A DNA stretch of 63,972 nt from Bdellovibrionales bacterium GWB1_55_8 (lineage in GTDB: Bacteria; Bdellovibrionota; UBA1018), in contig MEPR01000095.1 of the NCBI GenBank assembly GCA_001769835.1, forward strand, positions 18,471-82,442. Reading direction: 5' to 3'. A model generated the notes under the pieces. That model was not told where the DNA came from. It saw only the letters and a program-made list of their open reading frames with translations, and made no database searches. The position numbers and the translations under genes were made by a program. This document shows, one piece after another, positions 1-13,646 of this stretch; positions within the stretch are counted from its first letter, which is position 1, and each line of letters opens with the position of its first letter.

Positions 1-830
1 CACTTCTCAATGGCGGCGCGGTGAAATGCTGGGGAGACAACAGCTACGGCCAGCTCGGAAATGGTTTGACGGAAAACAGCGCGAGGCCCGTGAAGGTCAT
101 CGGCTTGCACACCGGTGTTCAGGCGATTGCAGCAGGTGCGTATCATACTTGCGCAACAACCAATGGAACGCTTCTCTGCTGGGGAGACAATCGTCGTGGA
201 CAACTTGGAAACGACTCAAAGGTGATGAGTGCCGTTCCGGTTCAGGTGAAATGGCTTACCCAGGGAGTACAGACGGCCTCGGCTGGGACATTCCACTCCT
301 GCGCTCTGGTCTCAGGCGGGGTAAAGTGCTGGGGTTACAATTTTTCAGGCCAGCTCGGAGACGGAACCGTTACTGATCACCTGACCCCCGTTCAGGTAAA
401 GGGACTCGAATCAGGTGTCCAATCCATTGACCTTGGCGACTTCCATTCCTGCGCCGTGCTTGAAGACGGGGTCCGGTGCTGGGGCTACAACGGATCAGGG
501 CAGCTCGGAGGCGCACAGGGAAGAAACGGCCTGGTGCCTCGCAAAGTCTCTCTGCCTGGAGTGCCGGTTTCGCTTGCCCTCGGAAGCTATCACACCTGTG
601 CATTGCTTCCCGATCAGAGCGTCTATTGCTGGGGTTACAATCACGAAGGCCAGGCGCTTCCTGGCACAGCCGCTAAAGTTCTTACGCCTCAGACGGTTCC
701 TTTCGCACAAGGCGCGGAGCTCGTCACGGCGGCGGCGAACCACTCGTGCGTGATTATTGAGCGCAAGGTTCACTGCTGGGGCTGGAACGGCGTGACCCGC
801 TTTTCGCCTGATCCCATTCAGCTTCGATAG
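1..830 (+). CDS. RCC1-repeat protein, 5' end outside the window
   Basis: The open frame runs in from the left edge (first complete codon at position 3) and stops at 828-830. It encodes about six blade repeats of roughly 50 residues. Each has the RCC1 signature CWGxNxxGQLGxG followed by an HTCA or HSCA strand. RCC1 repeats fold as a seven-bladed beta-propeller; in bacteria they usually occur in secreted or surface proteins of unknown ligand. A GTG at position 21 is an internal Val, because the repeat pattern continues upstream of it. Any signal peptide would be outside the window. The last repeat is degenerate, consistent with a propeller closing. Function is not known. Confidence 0.88.
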   Translation, partial: LLNGGAVKCWGDNSYGQLGNGLTENSARPVKVIGLHTGVQAIAAGAYHTCATTNGTLLCWGDNRRGQLGNDSKVMSAVPVQVKWLTQGVQTASAGTFHSCALVSGGVKCWGYNFSGQLGDGTVTDHLTPVQVKGLESGVQSIDLGDFHSCAVLEDGVRCWGYNGSGQLGGAQGRNGLVPRKVSLPGVPVSLALGSYHTCALLPDQSVYCWGYNHEGQALPGTAAKVLTPQTVPFAQGAELVTAAANHSCVIIERKVHCWGWNGVTRFSPDPIQLR

Positions 831-3353: not shown

Positions 3354-4775
3354 TTAAGACCCAGGGCGCTTCAATCCAAGCCGGCTCACGATGCGATGAA
3401 TGGTTCTTCGGTCAATCCCACTCGCTTCAGCGGCTGCCGAAATGTTCCAATCGTATTTCAAAAGCGTGTGCCTGACATAGCTCTCTTCAAAATGATCGAA
3501 CACTTTCTTTTTCGCTTCATTCAAAGGAAGCTCGTAAAAAGGAGACCAGTCAGCAGCAGGCTCATCAGTGGCGCCAGCGGATTTTCCCGAAACGCATGAT
3601 ATCTGGCCTGGCAGATCACCGACATCCACGACTCCGTCGCGATCAGCGAAAATTAGAAACTGCGCGAGATTCACCAGTTCGCGGACATTTCCGGGCCAGG
3701 AGTACCTCAGGAGGCAATCCTTCGCTTCCGGACTAATCTCTTTAGGAGCCGGACGCGCACGCGTTGAATGCGAAGACAGAAAATGCTGAAGAAGCAGCAG
3801 AATATCCTCCTTACGTTCCCTGAGCGGAGGGATTGTGATGGTGATGACATTCAGCCGGTAAAAGAGATCCTGCCGAAAGGATTTCTCGGAGATCATGAGG
3901 GGCAGCTCGCGATTTGTCGCCGAGACAAACCGGACATTGATCGAGCGTTCCTTGTTCGTCCCCAGACGCCGGACTTTCCTGTCCTCGATCACGCGCAGGA
4001 GTTTTGCCTGCAGCGCAACCGGCATCTCTCCGATCTCATCGAGGAACACCGTCCCGCCATCGGCGTTTTCAAAAAGACCGAGACGGGTTTCCGTGGCGCC
4101 GGTGAAAGCGCCGGCCTCATGACCAAACAGCTCGCTCTCCAGGAGATTTTCCGGAATCGCGGCGCAATTGATCGGCGCGAAATGCTTGCGCGCACGCGGC
4201 GACTTGCGGTGCAGAATCCGCGCGGCGAGTTCCTTCCCTGTTCCGCTCTCCCCATAGAGCAGGACGCTCGAATCCATTACGGCGGCGCGCTCCAGATCCT
4301 CGAACAATTTTCGCATGGGCTCGCTGCGGCCAATCAAGTCGCCGTATTGACTGAGGCCGGCCACCTGAGCCCGCAGAAACTGGTTCTCACGGCTGAGCCG
4401 GCTTTTATCGAGAGCGCTGTTGACCGCGTGAAGAAGCTGCTCAGGAGAAAACGGTTTCAGAAGATAGTCCGAAGCCCCGGCCTTGAGCGCCGAAATCGCG
4501 GTTTCCACCGTCGGAAAGCCGGTGATGAGAATAATTCCACAACCGTGCTCCGCCTGACGAATTCTCGAAATAAGCTCTAGTCCGCTCATCTGAGGCATGG
4601 TCATATCCGTGACCACCAGGTCCACGGATTGTCCCTCGAGGGTTTTCAATGCCTGCGGTGCGGACGAAGCCGTCAATACAGTATAGCCCTCGTCACCGAG
4701 GATATCCGAACAGGTCTCGAGCCAATCAGGTTCATCATCAACAACCAGGATGGTCTCAGTCCTTTTTTCCGCCAT
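3354..4775 (-). CDS. Sigma-54-dependent response regulator (NtrC family)
   Basis: 473 residues. An N-terminal receiver domain carries phospho-acceptor Asp57 and the conserved Lys in LLKPF. An AAA+ domain has Walker A GESGTGKE (175-182), the sigma-54 contact loop GAFTGA (222-227) and Walker B FLDE (about 244-247). The C-terminus is a Fis-type helix-turn-helix. The start at 4775 is chosen by domain length and a GGGAGG site just upstream. It overlaps the kinase gene by 20 bp, so the two are probably translationally coupled and form a cognate pair. Targets are probably local, since a sigma-54 promoter lies at 1033-1048. It converges with the fused cytochrome gene, 11 nt apart. Confidence 0.93.
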
Positions 4776-6684
4776 TGGCCCCTCCCACGATCGGAAGCAC
4801 GATCTCGAACTCGGCGCCGCCCTCGGGATGATTCCGAACGCGCATGGTTCCGGAATGCTCTTCAATAATGCCGTGGCTGATGGAAAGCCCAAGTCCCGTA
4901 CCCTTGCCCACCGGCTTCGTAGTAAAGAACGGTTCCATTACCTTGTCCAGGATATCGCCGGGAATTCCTTCACCGGAATCACGAACGCGGACGCGGACCG
5001 CTGGCTGGCTTTCAAGCGTGGCCATATCGGCACTCACTTTAATCTGACCGCCCCCGGCCATCGCGTCCACCGCGTTGTTGAAAAGGTTCAGGAATACCTG
5101 CGCCAGTTCATTGCGGTTACCCTCCACAAAGGGAAGGTCCGCGGGAATATCCTTCTCAAACTGGACATTCGCGCCGGCAAACCTCGAGCCGACCAGTTCC
5201 AAAGCATCGTGAATCGGATCCTGAACATGCAGCAGACTTTTCTCCTGCGGCCTTCTTCGGGAAAAAGTAAGGAGCGCACGAACAATGTCCGCCACGCGTT
5301 CAGACTGCTTGACGATCCGCTGAAGGTATTTCGTCACGTACTCCGGCGGCTGCGTGGGCTCTGACTGCAGACGATTCAGCACATAACGCGCTCCCGCGAG
5401 GATCACGCCATTCGGGTTATTCACCTCATGTGCCACACCGCCGGCAAGCTCTCCTACTGCGGCCAGCCTACCTGACTGAAGAAGCTTCTGATGCGTCTCT
5501 TCAAGCTGGGCACGCTGATAGTCGAGTTTGTCCTGCAATTCGCGATTGAAATTCTCGACCGTGATCTGCGCCAGGCGCTCGCTCGTGACATCGCGCCATT
5601 GCACGATGATCGCAAGCGGGATTCGCTCTGTGCCGAACAGAGGATAGGCTTCCTGAACGAGATATTTCTTCTGCCCTGCGATCGTGAACTCGATGTCCTG
5701 CTCTTCAAAGCTGAGGGACTGAAGACATCGTCGGCATAACTCCTCGACAGAGGGTGTCTGGCCCGGCAGGTTGATGATGGAACACGGCTCACTGATGAGA
5801 CTCTCTTCCGACGCTGATGCCCCCGCGTCAGTAAGAAGACTGGTCAGATAGTGATTCACCAGGACGATTCTGAGTTCCGTCGAAACCATGGCAACGCCGA
5901 TCTGCATACCGTTGAAGATGGTTTCAAGGGTATCGCGCGTATCGATAAGCTGATCGTCCCGGCGTTCGAGCGCCTCCATCAGCACACCGAATGTCGGCGA
6001 AAGAAAACTATCCGGATCCGCTCCCTCTGACCGGAACCGGACGGCGCGAATCACCCTCATCGTGAAGCGCGAAATGTAGATATCCACAAAAACGGCGGCA
6101 CCGAGCAAAAACAGGAAAGCCGTGATGAACATGACCGCGGAAAGTGCCAGGCTATCCTGCGCCGTCGAGTACAGAGCGGCGTAGGAAATGCCGATCTCAA
6201 GGCGCTCCTGCAGCCCATTCCGCTCGCTCAACGTCAGGAACACCCGGAATTCGGAGCCCTCTCCTGAAAGCGACGTCAGTTCGGGCTTGGGAAACTGTTT
6301 GGCGATCGGTCGGTCGGGGTTGATTCGAATCAAACGGATCCGGCCCTGCTGCTGCGGGCCAGGGGTGAGCCCGGCGCGCGCAAACGGGACGTCCCCGCGG
6401 TAAAATGCGCTCCAAAGCACAAGTTTATTATTCTGCGTGGTGCTCACGGCCAGTGTCGGCGAGATGGTACCTTCGCGGGCCTGATGGACCAGAGTCCCCA
6501 GATGAAGCGCAAGTTGATCCACGGATTCACGGGCGAATTCCACTTGCTGAAAAAAACCGATAATCGCGGTAGGCAGCAAAGCCACGAAACAGATCGACGC
6601 AAAAGCGAGGAGCTTCATGTACCGGGGCAGTCCGGAGCGGCTTGAACTTTTTGAAGTGGAGATGTCTTTTCGCAACTGAGCCAT
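4756..6684 (-). CDS. Membrane sensor histidine kinase, partner of the NtrC-like regulator
   Basis: 642 residues. Membrane segments near 24-45 and 180-202 bracket a periplasmic sensor domain of about 135 residues with no motif I recognise. A PAS-like region lies near 250-370 and a short coiled coil near 375-405. The HisKA box has His419 in GGVAHEVNNP, and the HATPase domain shows the N box and DSGEGIPG and GTGLGLS glycine motifs. It is the NtrB/ZraS-like class that pairs with sigma-54 activators. No haem motif is present, unlike the divergent kinase at 6748. The ligand cannot be told from sequence. Confidence 0.92.
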   Translation of the reverse strand: MAQLRKDISTSKSSSRSGLPRYMKLLAFASICFVALLPTAIIGFFQQVEFARESVDQLALHLGTLVHQAREGTISPTLAVSTTQNNKLVLWSAFYRGDVPFARAGLTPGPQQQGRIRLIRINPDRPIAKQFPKPELTSLSGEGSEFRVFLTLSERNGLQERLEIGISYAALYSTAQDSLALSAVMFITAFLFLLGAAVFVDIYISRFTMRVIRAVRFRSEGADPDSFLSPTFGVLMEALERRDDQLIDTRDTLETIFNGMQIGVAMVSTELRIVLVNHYLTSLLTDAGASASEESLISEPCSIINLPGQTPSVEELCRRCLQSLSFEEQDIEFTIAGQKKYLVQEAYPLFGTERIPLAIIVQWRDVTSERLAQITVENFNRELQDKLDYQRAQLEETHQKLLQSGRLAAVGELAGGVAHEVNNPNGVILAGARYVLNRLQSEPTQPPEYVTKYLQRIVKQSERVADIVRALLTFSRRRPQEKSLLHVQDPIHDALELVGSRFAGANVQFEKDIPADLPFVEGNRNELAQVFLNLFNNAVDAMAGGGQIKVSADMATLESQPAVRVRVRDSGEGIPGDILDKVMEPFFTTKPVGKGTGLGLSISHGIIEEHSGTMRVRNHPEGGAEFEIVLPIVGGANGGKKD

Positions 6685-6747: not shown

Positions 6748-8955
6748 ATGTCCATTCGTCCCGGCCGACGCCAGAGCCTCTACTCGCGCGCCCTACTTTT
6801 CACGTTGGTAGGCTGCGGATGTCTGCTTGGCGCCATTCTGGTTCAGTCCTGGATCATGGTGAACGGCACCGTCGATCGATTACTGCAGGAACGCATCAGC
6901 CTCGCCAAAAGCACCGCAAGCTACGTCGAACAACACATCAATTACCAACTTGAGCAATTATCGCGCGCCGCGGCTGAGACACTCAGTTCGTCACCGATGG
7001 ATCTGCGCGAGGTCAGGAAATCAATCGGTGCGCTCTATACGGGCACTGTTTTTGAGGAAGGGGCGTTCGTCCTCTGGCGTGATGGGCGCCCCCTGGCGTC
7101 CGTGCCGGAAGACGATCTTCTCGAAGAACTGCCGCCCGAACCGATCGCTGCGCTCGTTGCGCAGTCCAGGAATTCAGGACGTATCGCGGCTTCCAGCCTG
7201 ACGCATCTAGGGAAAACAAAAAGGCCCGTTCTGATTTTTTTACAGCCCATCCAGAAAAACTCGGGACCGATCCTGGGTTATATCGGAGGACTCCTTCACC
7301 CGGCCTCAAATAACCTGCTCGCACCCTTCACTCCGGGAGGCTCCGGAACCCGAAGTATTCTTCAACTTGTCGACAGCACGGGCACTGTCGTCAGCTCCAC
7401 GAGTCCCGCGCTGCTGTTCGACCCGACGGATCATGACAGCATGCTGAAGCGCGCGATTCAGGAAAGACGGGAAATCAAGGGTCGTTGCCATTCCTGCCAT
7501 GACAGCGCCGGAGGGGCTCCGGCGTCGCGCGAGTCAGAGGTGCTTGCTTTCGCGCCGCTCCGTCATCTTCCCTTTGGCATGGCCATTCGCCAACCGGAAC
7601 ATGAGGCCCTCGGTCCTGCGTTCGCCCTCCAGTCGCGCCTGATCTGGCTCGGAGTCGCTTTCGTCGTGCTGTTCGTCGGGTTTACCGCCCTCTCCGTGCA
7701 CAGCGTGGTCTCGCCGGTGAAACGGCTGACCCATGCCGTACGAGTCGTCGAGAACATGAATTCAGAGCTCCGCCTGCCTTCGTTCGGACACGACGAGATC
7801 GGCGAGCTGGCGAACGCCCTGGAACGCTGGCGAAACAGGGTCATCGAATCCGTGGCCACGCTGGAATTGCGCGAACGCGATATCCACAATCAGTTTGTCG
7901 CGACCACGCGCCACCTGAAGGCCTTGCAGGAAATAGGGAACCTCGGATCAGAAAAACAGAATCTGCAGGACTTTCTAAACGACGCACTCGCCGCCATGCT
8001 GAAATTTTTCGGATTCCAAAAAGGAAAACTCACCCTCACTCACGGTGAAAGGCATTTCGTTGCGACGAATCGTTCGCCTGAAGAAGACGGACAGAGCGTC
8101 GATGCGGCCGCCGAACTGAAGTTCGGGGAAATGGGCGTGAGCTGCTCGCTTGACAGCCCGATCGACCGCTCCCATGACCTGCCAGCTAACAGGATAGAAT
8201 CCCTGCTGCATCAGATCCTTGTGAGCGCCGCGCACCGCCTGCTGCATGAAAGGGACGCCGAGCGCCACAAGCAAAGCCGTGAGTTTCTCCAGGGCGTCCT
8301 GCGAGCCCAGGAGGAGGAGCGCAGACGCATCGCACGCGAGCTTCACGACACGCTCGCACAGGATCTCGCCGCGCATCGTTTCGAAATCGAGCGCATGATC
8401 AAGCACTCGCCGGCCGGGCCTGAGAGTGAGCTTCTCAAGCCGCAGCTTGCCGCCCTGGAAATCCGAGCCCACGAAATGCTGATCACCCTCCGCCGCCTGC
8501 TCCTGGACCTCAGGCCTTCCGTGCTCGACACGATGGGTTTTCTGCCTGCTCTTCAGTGGTACCTGGAACGCCTGGAGCGTGAGCATGGGATTCGGGGACG
8601 AGTGAGCGCGGAAAGCGATGGCTTGCACCTGAGCCCCGAAAGCGAGATGAACCTGTTCCGGATATTCCAGGAAGCGTTGAACAACGTCGTTCAGCATTCG
8701 CAGGCTCAACACGTTTTCGTGACAATCAATCAGGCAGATAACATGGTAGAGATGGTGATCGAAGATGACGGTCGCGGCTTTGATCTCGCATCACTGAAAA
8801 CGCGCCCCACGCCTTCGGGCACCGATGAACGCGGCCTGGGCTTGCTAGGCATCACGGAACGTTCCGAATTGCTGGGCGGGCAGATGCAGGTGCAATCAAC
8901 GCCAGGCGAAGGCACAAATATCAGCGTTCGAATTCCCGCTGGAGAGATTTCGTGA
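6748..8955 (+). CDS. NarX-type sensor histidine kinase with a c-haem motif in its periplasmic domain
   Basis: 735 residues, AGGAG 6 nt before the ATG. TM1 near 12-35 and TM2 near 297-320 enclose a periplasmic domain of about 260 residues that resembles Cache-type sensors. Close to TM2 it carries CHSCH (Cys247, Cys250, His251), the covalent c-haem attachment motif. A HAMP linker, a degenerate GAF-like region, a HisKA_3 box with His533 in RELHDT and a HATPase domain with DDGRGFD follow. HisKA_3 kinases pair with LuxR-type regulators, and one overlaps its stop codon by 4 bp. If haem is attached in the periplasm it could sense redox state, NO, CO or O2. That is inference, though haem-bearing periplasmic sensor domains are known in Geobacter and Desulfovibrio chemoreceptors. 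Confidence 0.9.
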   Translation: MSIRPGRRQSLYSRALLFTLVGCGCLLGAILVQSWIMVNGTVDRLLQERISLAKSTASYVEQHINYQLEQLSRAAAETLSSSPMDLREVRKSIGALYTGTVFEEGAFVLWRDGRPLASVPEDDLLEELPPEPIAALVAQSRNSGRIAASSLTHLGKTKRPVLIFLQPIQKNSGPILGYIGGLLHPASNNLLAPFTPGGSGTRSILQLVDSTGTVVSSTSPALLFDPTDHDSMLKRAIQERREIKGRCHSCHDSAGGAPASRESEVLAFAPLRHLPFGMAIRQPEHEALGPAFALQSRLIWLGVAFVVLFVGFTALSVHSVVSPVKRLTHAVRVVENMNSELRLPSFGHDEIGELANALERWRNRVIESVATLELRERDIHNQFVATTRHLKALQEIGNLGSEKQNLQDFLNDALAAMLKFFGFQKGKLTLTHGERHFVATNRSPEEDGQSVDAAAELKFGEMGVSCSLDSPIDRSHDLPANRIESLLHQILVSAAHRLLHERDAERHKQSREFLQGVLRAQEEERRRIARELHDTLAQDLAAHRFEIERMIKHSPAGPESELLKPQLAALEIRAHEMLITLRRLLLDLRPSVLDTMGFLPALQWYLERLEREHGIRGRVSAESDGLHLSPESEMNLFRIFQEALNNVVQHSQAQHVFVTINQADNMVEMVIEDDGRGFDLASLKTRPTPSGTDERGLGLLGITERSELLGGQMQVQSTPGEGTNISVRIPAGEIS

Positions 8956-9641
8956 ACAAAGTTCGCATGCTGTTGGCCGATGATCACACTGTGTTGCGAA
9001 TCGGCTTGCGCGCATTTTTTGAGGAACAGAAAGATCCGGCGTTTGAAATCGTAGCCGAGGCGGCTTCGGGAGAACAGGCCATCGAGCTCGTGACGCAACA
9101 CAGGCCGGATCTGCTTCTGCTCGACCTTTCAATGCCAGGCATGGGAGGCCTTGAAACGACGCTGGAGCTGAAACGTCGAGGAACGAGAACCCGAATCCTG
9201 ATCCTCACCCAGTTCAACGAAGCGATCTATCTCAGACGGGTTCTTGAGGCTGGCGCGAACGGTTACATCCTGAAATCTGCGCGTGGCGACGAACTCATGA
9301 GTGCCGTCAGGAACGTGCTTTCCGGCGGAACCTATATTGATCCGAGTCTCGCGGGCACGCTCCTGGGCGCCGCCGTTCCTCCGACCGAGGCCGGCATGGA
9401 GCAATCCACGCAATCCGCCGAGGACGCCTATTCACGCCTGACACCACGGGAACAGCAAATTCTGAAGTTGATCGCCGAAGGCTTCAGCAACAAGGAAATC
9501 GCGAGCAGTCTCGAGCTGGCGGTTAAAACGGTGATGTCGCATCGGATGAACCTGATGGACAAGCTAAGCATCCATAATCGCTCCAAGCTCGTTCAATTCG
9601 CGATCAAAGTGGGTTTGCTGCCGATCTCCCATTCCCAGTGA
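8952..9641 (+). CDS. LuxR/NarL-type response regulator
   Basis: 229 residues from a GTG that overlaps the kinase stop (GTGA), so translation is coupled. The receiver domain has the acidic pair Asp10-Asp11, phospho-acceptor Asp58 and the Lys in YILKSA. The C-terminal GerE-type helix-turn-helix begins at LTPREQQIL and includes SNKEIAS and VKTVMSH. It is the clear partner of the haem-motif kinase. Its target genes are unknown; the phased direct repeats upstream of 11319 are one candidate site. Confidence 0.94.
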   Translation: MNKVRMLLADDHTVLRIGLRAFFEEQKDPAFEIVAEAASGEQAIELVTQHRPDLLLLDLSMPGMGGLETTLELKRRGTRTRILILTQFNEAIYLRRVLEAGANGYILKSARGDELMSAVRNVLSGGTYIDPSLAGTLLGAAVPPTEAGMEQSTQSAEDAYSRLTPREQQILKLIAEGFSNKEIASSLELAVKTVMSHRMNLMDKLSIHNRSKLVQFAIKVGLLPISHSQ

Positions 9642-9644
9642 TCA

Positions 9645-10151
9645 TTATGTTTCAGGTTTGAGTTCAGTCAGGATCTGAGCAGCCGAAGCAGGATCAATTC
9701 GTGTGATCAGGAATACCGGTATTCCTTCGATGTTCGATGAAAACACGTGCCAACCTTCGGGGCAGCGTGCGCGATCCCTGAGACACTCACGGAGGTACGC
9801 GAACTCCTCTGGCAAGGGTTCGGACCCGCTGCCGACCCAGAGCGCGACCTCTTCCGGTTTCTCATTTGAGACAAGCCCGACCCACCAGCCTGGAACGGGC
9901 TTCTCGCGATGAAAGATCCTCTCCGGAGGCCAGCGCAAGGTTTCGGGAAGGTACGCTGGAAAAACCCGTTTCCCAGCTGAGGACGGAATTTCAGCGAGGC
10001 TTGCGGCGCGGAGCCAGCCGGGGTGCTCAATAGGTCCGAAAAATCCGCGATCCACGACGAGCAAAAAACTGACCATAGCGCCTGTCCAGATAGTTGCCAG
10101 CAGTAGTCGGAGCCACGGCCCTTTCACTCGCGATCTCATCGTATCCCCCAA
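9645..10151 (-). CDS. Membrane-anchored protein of unknown function
   Basis: 168 residues with one hydrophobic segment near 13-35 and a soluble remainder likely outside the cytoplasm. It has two Cys (ECLRDRARCPEGW) that could form a disulfide. Its start overlaps the end of the upstream metallopeptidase gene by 16 bp, so the two are probably made together; ATG 10139 is an alternative start. I recognise no family. The pairing with a peptidase suggests a substrate, inhibitor or partner, without direct evidence. Confidence 0.65.
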   Translation of the reverse strand: MGDTMRSRVKGPWLRLLLATIWTGAMVSFLLVVDRGFFGPIEHPGWLRAASLAEIPSSAGKRVFPAYLPETLRWPPERIFHREKPVPGWWVGLVSNEKPEEVALWVGSGSEPLPEEFAYLRECLRDRARCPEGWHVFSSNIEGIPVFLITRIDPASAAQILTELKPET

Positions 10152-11158
10152 AGAATCAGCAGCATCATGATGAATGTCGCGAGCCGCGGAAACCGCGAGC
10201 GTGACGCCGAACTTCGAAGCTCCTCCACTGGCGTATCCAGCAGGGCGCGAACCCTGCCGCGAGTGGTTTCGATTGCGATCTTCCGCGACACTTCCGCCCG
10301 CGCACGCTGAAATGCGCGCGCGCCCTTCTGCACAGCGCCGCGCTCCTGGACTTTGAGCAGCGCCGACGCAAGCGCCGCAGGACGCCCGGTTACGGCAGCG
10401 GCAAGCTCATCGCAGGCACGTTCGCGAAGCTCCAGAATTCCGCGAAATGCGATCAGCGCCGCAGGATTCAACACCTGAATGGCGCGAACTGCCCAAAGCA
10501 GAATTGTGCGCGGATTCCCACCGAAGGCGACATGCGCCAGCTCGTGGGCCAGAACGGCATCAAGCTCCTGATCATCGAGCTTCGACATTAGCGCGGAAGA
10601 AATCAGAATCCGCGGGGTCAAAATTCCGTGAAGGCTGGCGATCGACTCAGAAGATTCCAAACGAAATACATAAGGCACGCGCCCACGCCATCGCCGGTAC
10701 CCCTGGAATCCCGCGATCACCCGCTCAAGCGCTTGTTCCAGCCTTTGATCCCGAAAGGCCTCCCCTCGCGGCAAAGCGCGGGCACGCTTCCAGACAGGAA
10801 TGGCTTCCTGTAGAAGAAATATGAGGGCGGAACCAGCCACAAGGACGACAAAGGCAGCCAGAAAAGCCTCGGAATTCAACATTCGTGCAAGCCATGCCTG
10901 GACGCGAACGAGAGCACTCTCGGGCTGCATCTGAGTTCCGAAAAAAAGCCGCGCCACGGAAGCGAAGAGTGGAACCACGAGTACCATCTCAAGAGAAGCC
11001 GCGCGAAAAGCAGCTGATAGCGGGCCCGCGACGCGCTGAAGGCCGCTCACCCAGACCAGGGCGACGAGACCTTGCAGAACATTTGTCAGCACGAATTCCA
11101 TTAGCGAAAATGTTGGCACGACAGCCGCTTCGGGCGCAACTTCGCAATGTCTTTGCAT
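10136..11158 (-). CDS. Membrane zinc metallopeptidase (M48/M56-like)
   Basis: 340 residues. Several hydrophobic segments occupy the first 120 residues, followed by a cytoplasmic-type peptidase domain with HELAH at 205-209 and a downstream ERACDELA helix supplying the third zinc ligand, as in M48 and BlaR1-type M56 peptidases. A last hydrophobic segment closes the C-terminus. No beta-lactam sensor domain is present, so it is not BlaR1. The start is uncertain: an internal Met at 11101 would remove 19 residues of unremarkable sequence. It sits divergently from a small membrane-protein gene and is followed by an overlapping exported-protein gene. Confidence 0.82.
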   Translation of the reverse strand: MQRHCEVAPEAAVVPTFSLMEFVLTNVLQGLVALVWVSGLQRVAGPLSAAFRAASLEMVLVVPLFASVARLFFGTQMQPESALVRVQAWLARMLNSEAFLAAFVVLVAGSALIFLLQEAIPVWKRARALPRGEAFRDQRLEQALERVIAGFQGYRRWRGRVPYVFRLESSESIASLHGILTPRILISSALMSKLDDQELDAVLAHELAHVAFGGNPRTILLWAVRAIQVLNPAALIAFRGILELRERACDELAAAVTGRPAALASALLKVQERGAVQKGARAFQRARAEVSRKIAIETTRGRVRALLDTPVEELRSSASRSRFPRLATFIMMLLILWGIR

Positions 11159-11207: not shown

Positions 11208-11318
11208 TTTTTTCAGGGCGATCTAGGTACTTTTTCCTAGTCCAGCTGAGGTCTCTGCCCGATGCCCCAACTCGTTTCTAAATGCTAACTTGGAATCATG
11301 AAAACGAGGAGACAAGCC

Positions 11319-11744
11319 ATGAAAGACTATAAAGCTGGAGAAAAAGTTGGATACGGACTGTATGTTTCGCCGAAGGCTCTCGACGTGAGATTCGTCGGAT
11401 CAGATGACGAAACACTCGCGGGAAAAAGAGGATCGGCCTACTACCGGCTCCCGGCCCTTTTGATGATCGCAGCCGCCCCGGTGCTGGGCGGGATCTTCGT
11501 GATGGCCTTCCCGCTGATGGTCCTCTTGATGGTGGCTGGTGCCATCCTGAGACTGGTTTACAATACGGTAAGCTCGGCAGTGGAGGCGAGAACACACCTT
11601 CTGCAGATGAACTGGCAGCCCAGCGCCGCTTACCTGAACAAGGACAAGAGCGAACGCAAAGAAGGCGAAAACACCACCGAGAAGACGAATGAACTGAAAG
11701 ACCTGAATCAGGAAGTTCAGAAACGTCGCAACGAGGAAAGCTGA
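11319..11744 (+). CDS. Small membrane protein upstream of the nine-haem cytochrome
   Basis: 141 residues from ATG 11319, preferred over ATG 11298 because an AGGAGA site (11307-11312) is correctly placed for it. One long hydrophobic stretch near residues 40-75 (one or two membrane helices) is flanked by polar ends, and the C-terminus is a highly charged, probably coiled-coil tail rich in Lys and Glu. I recognise no family. It ends 12 nt before the cytochrome c gene, so it is very probably in one operon with it and the cytochrome b gene. Confidence 0.7.
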   Translation: MKDYKAGEKVGYGLYVSPKALDVRFVGSDDETLAGKRGSAYYRLPALLMIAAAPVLGGIFVMAFPLMVLLMVAGAILRLVYNTVSSAVEARTHLLQMNWQPSAAYLNKDKSERKEGENTTEKTNELKDLNQEVQKRRNEES

Positions 11745-12854: not shown

Positions 12855-13646
12855 ATGGCACGCACAAAAATCGTCCGCCGCCGCGACGGCACTGTCCTGG
12901 TCGAGAGATTTTCACCCTTTCGCAGGGTCGAGCATCTCATGGTGATCATTGTTTTCGTCCTGCTCGTGCTCACGGGATTTCCACAGAAATTCTATGAGTC
13001 CACCTGGGCGACATCGACTCTGAATTTCTTCGGAGGACTGGACCGGGCTCGAACGGTACACCGGGTTGCTGGGATGGTCTTCGCCTTTCAAGCGATCTTT
13101 CATATCGCGGTGATCATGATCGGCACATTGACAAAGAAGATGCGACTGACCTTGCTTCCGACGCCACAGGACCTTCGGGACGTTTTTGCGACCATGTCCT
13201 ACTACTTCGGCTATCGCAAAGAACACCCGCGCTATCCGAAATTCGATTATCGCCAGAAGTTCGAATATCTGGGAATGGTCCTGGGCGGAATGGTGATGGT
13301 TTTCACCGGTCTCGTCCTCCTCTACCCAGGGCTCACTGCGTCGATCATGCCTGGACAGATTATTCCAGCAGCGCGGATCATGCACTCCAGTGAAGCCCTG
13401 CTGGCGCTTTCAGTGTTGATCGTTTGGCACGTTTACGGATCGCATCTTTCGCCGGAGGTTTTCCCGATGGATACGAGCATTTTCACAGGCTACATGACCG
13501 AGGAAGAACTCGCCGAACGCCACAGCCTGGAATACGAACACGTCTTTGGCAAACCCCCCGCGCATCTGGCGGAGCATGCGGAAGCACCGAAAACGGGTGT
13601 GACGCTAACGCCGCCTGAAGATACCGATTCGGCGCCGAAAGCTTGA
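12855..13646 (+). CDS. Membrane cytochrome b subunit (HydC/FdnI-like)
   Basis: 263 residues, with AGGAGG overlapping the previous stop. About four membrane helices carry His in RVEHLM, VHRVAG, IFHIAV and VLIVWHVYGSHL, the pattern for two b haems near a quinone site. It aligns along its length with the C-terminal half of the fused cytochrome at 1831-3342, including MHSSEALLA against IHADEALLA and the FPMD/FPMN tail, so the two modules are paralogues. A charged, Pro-rich cytoplasmic tail of about 60 residues ends the protein. Confidence 0.87.
   Translation: MARTKIVRRRDGTVLVERFSPFRRVEHLMVIIVFVLLVLTGFPQKFYESTWATSTLNFFGGLDRARTVHRVAGMVFAFQAIFHIAVIMIGTLTKKMRLTLLPTPQDLRDVFATMSYYFGYRKEHPRYPKFDYRQKFEYLGMVLGGMVMVFTGLVLLYPGLTASIMPGQIIPAARIMHSSEALLALSVLIVWHVYGSHLSPEVFPMDTSIFTGYMTEEELAERHSLEYEHVFGKPPAHLAEHAEAPKTGVTLTPPEDTDSAPKA

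Follow-up and report, generated by a model that had tools for sequence, protein, structure and literature searches.

A sensor histidine kinase gene in a 63,972-nucleotide stretch of contig MEPR01000095.1 from Bdellovibrionales bacterium GWB1_55_8 (hereafter the window) carries a CHSCH sequence in its sensor-coding part. This locus raises the question of whether the kinase senses through a covalently attached haem c and, if so, which signal it reads and which genes it controls. An earlier note on this DNA, prepared from the sequence alone, described the protein as a NarX-like kinase with a covalent haem motif that would tune adjacent cytochrome modules. This proposal was followed up by computational analysis of the kinase, its orthologues and its neighbourhood (Table 1).

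Table 1. Features of the kinase locus, with positions in the window.
Feature	Position	Strand	Evidence
Predicted c-haem double-Cache sensor histidine kinase (P0001), 735 aa	6748..8955	+	ORF, Pfam, orthologues
Kinase TM helix 1, residues 15-33	6790..6846	+	hydropathy
Periplasmic double-Cache (dCache) sensor domain, residues 34-298	6847..7641	+	AlphaFold model, dCache_1 match of G018 orthologue, hhalign
His229, candidate distal haem ligand	7432..7434	+	invariant in 9/9 haem-motif orthologues
CHSCH, predicted haem-c attachment motif, residues 247-251, end of beta3 / beta3-beta4 loop, membrane-proximal Cache module	7486..7500	+	
Kinase TM helix 2, residues 299-317	7642..7698	+	hydropathy
Kinase HAMP domain, residues 317-360	7696..7827	+	Pfam
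Kinase HisKA_3 dimerisation / phospho-acceptor domain, residues 524-593	8317..8526	+	Pfam
Kinase HATPase_c domain, residues 633-731	8644..8940	+	Pfam
NarL/LuxR-type response regulator, 4-bp overlap with kinase	8952..9641	+	Pfam; adjoins kinase in orthologous loci
Small single-TM periplasmic protein of the module, no Pfam match	9645..10151	-	orthologous loci
M56 (BlaR1-type) membrane peptidase, HELAH motif	10136..11158	-	orthologous loci
Conserved 18-bp promoter motif CTAGGTACTTTTTCCTAG, candidate operator of the regulator	11223..11240	+	
Degenerate second motif copy, about 22-23 bp downstream	11246..11262	+	by eye
Small one-TM protein of the module, no Pfam match; start chosen by homology	11319..11744	+	
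P0006, nine-haem c-type cytochrome with C-terminal TM helix	11757..12845	+	nine CxxCH
P0007, cytochrome b561 / FdnI-HydC-type membrane cytochrome b	12855..13646	+	Pfam, FdnI-/HydC-type models

A double-Cache sensor domain with a predicted haem-c site

The HAMP, HisKA_3 and HATPase_c domains of the kinase all score above their Pfam cut-offs (44.7 bits for HisKA_3 and 62 bits for HATPase_c). The locations of its two transmembrane (TM) helices place CHSCH (context KGRCHSCHD, with Cys247, Cys250 and His251) in a periplasmic part of 265 residues, 48 residues ahead of TM2 as judged by hydropathy. This agrees with the position near the second membrane helix given in the earlier note, whose residue numbers proved exact, and the overlap that it reported with a LuxR-type regulator is likewise present: the regulator, which carries Response_reg and GerE domains by Pfam, begins with a GTG codon at 8952 within the kinase stop codon. 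Only three open reading frames of at least 100 amino acids in the window contain CxxCH, namely two multihaem cytochromes and the kinase.

The description of the protein as NarX-like holds for the kinase core only. The NarX model yields 71.3 bits against a cut-off of 578, with the match limited to residues 523-729, and the NarQ model yields 106.6 bits against a cut-off of 553. A NarX-like sensor domain was ruled out by the dCache fold seen in an AlphaFold model and in its Foldseek matches. This model was computed from 28 sequences, comprising the nine haem-motif orthologues and haem-less relatives (dCache relatives included), and reaches a pLDDT of 92.4 and a pTM of 0.88; with five sequences only, pLDDT is 56. 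It comprises two Cache modules, one distal and one membrane-proximal, and a long helix at the N-terminus. In the proximal module, CHSCH lies at the end of beta3 (residues 243-248) and is followed by a low-confidence loop and then beta4 (residues 263-270).

In a Foldseek search of the PDB, each of the top 50 matches is a dCache-type sensor domain; those of Mlp37, PctA, DctB and mmHK1S are among them. Alignment of the sensor profile with haem-less dCaches by hhalign gives a probability of 98.8% over 233 columns, where some of these relatives had been found with the same profile. P0001 itself matches dCache_1 at a sub-threshold level only (13.2 bits, Pfam), and the orthologue from genome G018 alone scores 51.4 bits to dCache_1 (PF02743, curated cut-off 45), a result that is independent of the choice of relatives. 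These comparisons identify the sensor domain, with its predicted covalent haem-c site, as a double Cache.

Membership of the kinase in the haem-carrying single-Cache family sCache_heme (PF11845) was ruled out by three results. First, no PF11845 match at E <= 0.5-1 was found in P0001 or in three orthologues, and the kinase was not among the matches when its own genome was searched with this family. Second, the domain has two modules. Third, hhalign comparison of the sensor profile with the true sCache_heme domains of the phylum gives a probability of 1.7%. The same genome also encodes one genuine PF11845 protein (G000:C78:45031-45510, locus L053), which carries CLKCH and scores 81 bits. The closest haem-less relatives of the haem dCache are the sensor domains of the dCache hybrid kinases L034, L035 and L087 (family f9), which are useful as a 'before insertion' state of this domain.

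Conservation of the haem motif

A search of 58 genomes, made up of the source genome and its relatives, identified four orthologues of the kinase (G003, G006, G010 and G018), and a profile search of 369 genomes of the phylum extended the distribution to nine genomes from three families (f1, f9 and f22). The sensor domains of the orthologues are 35-55% identical to that of the window protein. Arg246, Cys247, His248, Cys250 and His251 (RCHxCH) are invariant in 9/9 orthologues. The earlier note had named loss of CxxCH in close homologues as evidence against its reading and had suggested checking Cys247, Cys250 and His251; such a loss is thus not seen, and all three residues are kept down to 35% sensor-domain identity. 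Among other dCache-type loci taken from the phylum, CxxCH was present in 0 of about 40. A chance occurrence of the motif was ruled out by its conservation in the orthologues together with its absence from the haem-less dCache controls.

Only one further residue among the His, Met, Cys, Lys and Tyr positions of the sensor domain is invariant in the nine orthologues, namely His229. In an alignment that includes 19 haem-less dCache domains, 14 of these have a residue in the corresponding column, and in none of them is it His. By topology, His229 is located ahead of a short helix that runs back along beta3. Its conservation and this topology suggest that His229 could reach the haem and hence is a candidate for the distal ligand.

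A cytochrome c assembly gene was found in all nine kinase genomes. Scanning of genome contigs with the single kinase protein returned just one unrelated Thiothrix kinase, and searches of plasmids with the kinase yielded matches to the kinase core only.

Linkage of the kinase to a cytochrome module

Orthologous loci share a fixed gene set: the kinase and regulator are followed on the opposite strand by the small periplasmic protein and the M56 peptidase, and then by the small TM protein, P0006 and P0007. This set is intact or nearly so in G000 (the source genome), G003, G010, G018 (on two contigs), G097, G099 and G186. The G333 locus has additional genes that separate the peptidase from the cytochrome, and in G006 the contig ends within the gene set, with the cytochrome half on another contig that carries the same promoter motif. 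At E <= 1e-40, strong orthologues of P0006 are present in all nine kinase genomes and in 0/360 of the remaining genomes among the 369. The naive probability of this co-occurrence is 3e-18, a figure that ignores relatedness through common descent or cassette transfer.

P0007 scores above the cut-off for Ni_hydr_CYTB, and it matches FdnI-type (7e-19) and HydC-type (2e-8) models below their cut-offs. The two cytochromes resemble CbcL of Geobacter sulfurreducens, which has nine c-type haems and a HydC/FdnI-like b-type membrane cytochrome and acts at the inner-membrane quinol side of electron export (PMC9129911, PMC6295460). Unlike CbcL, the module is split here into two genes, and the likeness is one of make-up. 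By this make-up, P0006 and P0007 appear to form a split CbcL-like module for electron transfer between quinol and periplasm.

The suggestion that the kinase acts on adjacent cytochrome modules therefore stands for P0006/P0007 (11757-13646), which are syntenic with the kinase, co-occur with it and have a regulator-like promoter site. It does not stand for P0005 (1831-3342, + strand), which has five CxxCH fused to a cytochrome b561/FdnI-type domain. P0005 was ruled out as a partner because G002 has it but lacks the kinase, and because it is located elsewhere in other genomes. Linkage of the kinase to the kinase pair P0003/P0004 was also rejected, because conservation of the pair beside it is seen in G003 only. 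In its make-up P0005 is CbcL/MtrH/MtoC-like, and it adjoins a HisKA kinase / NtrC-type regulator pair (3354-6684, - strand).

Several observations concern the remaining genes. The M56 peptidase gene overlaps that of the small single-TM periplasmic protein (together 9645-11158, - strand), and this pair is also found with nine-haem cytochrome modules away from the kinase (G003 C16 and G006 C138; L135 and L134). Members of the small one-TM family (11319-11744 in the window) have the conserved start MKxYxxxxxVxYGxYxSxxALDxRFVG, always lie directly ahead of a nine-haem cytochrome and are duplicated in some genomes. A search of viral contigs returned a short cytochrome-like match only. At the beginning of the window (21-830, + strand) is a fragment of an RCC1-like repeat protein with repeated CWG(D/Y/W)N motifs.

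A candidate operator at the cytochrome promoter

The motif CTAGGTACTTTTTCCTAG sits in the divergent promoter between the M56 peptidase and small TM genes, ahead of the operon for the small TM protein, the nine-haem cytochrome and cytochrome b. With at most one mismatch, it occurs once each in six genomes (G000, G018, G003, G006, G010 and G186), always at the cytochrome-operon promoter. By our own estimate, about 0.06 chance hits at this stringency would be expected over all nine genomes (about 38 Mb). The promoters of G097, G099 and G333 carry a degenerate motif with 4-6 mismatches, and G010 has a two-mismatch copy ahead of another small-TM-protein gene. Hits with three mismatches elsewhere are no commoner than those of a reversed control. 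In most genomes, a second degenerate copy is visible by eye downstream, and its spacing is as expected for a regulator that binds two helical turns apart. The motif CTAGGTACTTTTTCCTAG looks like the operator of the regulator. An Rfam search found nothing, and a sigma-70 scan returned nothing useful.

Possible signals read by the kinase

We assign a probability of roughly 60% to the reading that this is a two-component sensor with covalent haem c in the membrane-proximal dCache module, that redox gates it, and that its regulator acts on CTAGGTACTTTTTCCTAG to control the cytochrome operon. The cytochrome c maturation system would attach haem at Cys247 and Cys250, with His251 as the proximal ligand and His229 probably as the distal ligand. 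A change in the redox state of the haem brought about by the periplasmic electron pool, or an accompanying exchange of ligands, would then shift the proximal Cache module relative to TM2 and HAMP. By analogy with Cache domains in general and with GSU0582 and GSU0935, such a shift would set the activity of the HisKA_3 kinase. The overlapping NarL/LuxR-type regulator would bind the candidate operator and control transcription of the small TM protein, nine-haem cytochrome and cytochrome b561. Linkage of the regulator to this operon is observed in the loci; its binding, and the direction and sign of control, are what we infer.

The kinase might instead sense a gas, most likely nitric oxide, through haem c; in this case ligand binding at the distal side rather than redox would gate activity, and the cytochrome module would be adjusted to nitrosative or nitrogen-oxide conditions. 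Signalling by nitrogen oxides is an established role of HisKA_3/LuxR pairs, NarX-NarL among them. Furthermore, an sCache_heme of P. azotoformans that is fused to a signalling part binds NO, releases it slowly and does not form a stable complex with O2 (PMC12889525), and therefore the signal of the kinase could be a gas. However, the kinase domain is not an sCache_heme, the invariant His229 could occupy the sixth site, and there is no NO or nitrite enzyme in the conserved neighbourhood, where the partners are electron-transfer, peptidase and small membrane proteins. We regard NO sensing as unlikely and prefer redox sensing with moderate confidence, since a candidate sixth ligand is conserved and the neighbourhood is one of electron transfer throughout.

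Another scheme has haem attached at CxxCH, but the kinase reports haem supply or cytochrome maturation, such that the holo and apo states are the signal and expression of the nine-haem cytochrome is matched to maturation capacity. Strict coupling to a haem-demanding cytochrome is consistent with this scheme, and the M56 peptidase pair could serve quality control. Nothing observed separates haem-supply from redox sensing, but the invariant candidate distal His suggests a tuned coordination chemistry rather than occupancy alone, and we judge the scheme improbable. A cysteine pair that functions without haem, as a thiol/disulfide switch or metal site, would fit two lone periplasmic cysteines three residues apart but is very improbable, given that invariance extends beyond CxxC to the whole CHxCH, His248 and His251 included, that the position of the motif equals that of the beta3-beta4 haem insertion of sCache_heme (PMC12889525), and that the partner is a c-type cytochrome.

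Comparison with known sensors

The proposed redox-sensing kinase can be compared with sCache_heme (PF11845, also DUF3365 or Tll0287-like, and including GSU0582 and GSU0935), which was described in a preprint of February 2026 as the first case of a Cache family whose cofactor is covalently bound (PMC12889525). In these periplasmic sensors, a cytochrome-derived fragment with one CXXCH is inserted into a single Cache between beta3 and beta4, and the sensor, followed by TM2 and HAMP, feeds a kinase or chemoreceptor (PMC12889525, PMC8396549). The kinase studied here shares the beta3-beta4 position of the motif as well as TM2 and HAMP. Members have a redox- or NO-responsive haem c (PMC12889525, PMC8396549), and ligation linked to redox state is known from c-haem Cache sensors (PMC8396549). 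The kinase differs from this family in having two Cache modules rather than one, and in the context of its motif, which is RCHxCH compared with GC(L/V/N)xCHGxP in most sCache_heme members of the phylum. The remark in the earlier note that HisKA_3 kinases with c-type haem appear unusual needs correction, since c-type-haem sensor kinases as such are already known (PMC12889525, PMC8396549).

Both the two-module fold and the profile match are shared with dCache_1 domains (PF02743; PctA, Mlp37, DctB and mmHK1S), from which the kinase is set apart by its haem motif. Known domains of the dCache type recognise small ligands, for the most part through the distal module, and are not known to carry a cofactor. 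Like the NarX/NarQ-NarL/NarP systems, the locus has a HisKA_3 kinase core, HAMP and a NarL-type regulator in one operon, but NarX senses via a four-helix bundle (PMC3831638) whereas the kinase would sense via a dCache with a haem motif. DcrA of Desulfovibrio vulgaris also has a periplasmic c-type haem domain and is proposed to sense redox potential and oxygen (PMC8396549). However, DcrA is a chemoreceptor and not a HisKA_3 kinase, and its likeness to the kinase is one of described properties. In the literature searched, we found no sensor of the haem-c dCache kind linked to a CbcL-like module.

The lack of a PF11845 match together with the match to ordinary haem-less dCaches makes a second, independent acquisition of haem likely, and this looks to be the simplest reading of the sequences, as judged from searches of adequate sensitivity within this phylum. 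Strictly, replacement of one Cache module by recombination could also have given rise to the domain. There is perhaps an even chance for the broader hypothesis that the Cache superfamily acquired haem c on two or more occasions, and that it was inserted here independently in the membrane-proximal dCache module, at the position used by sCache_heme between beta3 and beta4, to give a dedicated redox sensor kinase that controls the inner-membrane quinol-cytochrome module of the same locus. Two features appear to be new, namely a double Cache with a predicted haem-c site and the strict genomic coupling of this sensor to a quinol-cytochrome module that has a probable operator.

Cache domains form a very large family of outside sensors, and covalent cofactors in them were reported only in 2026, in a single-Cache family only. 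A haem-c double Cache that is conserved across at least three families of one phylum and coupled to a single cytochrome module would add a second case, reached by convergence. The locus offers a complete circuit, with a sensor, a regulator, a candidate operator and a target, by which periplasmic redox sensing may switch inner-membrane quinol cytochromes.
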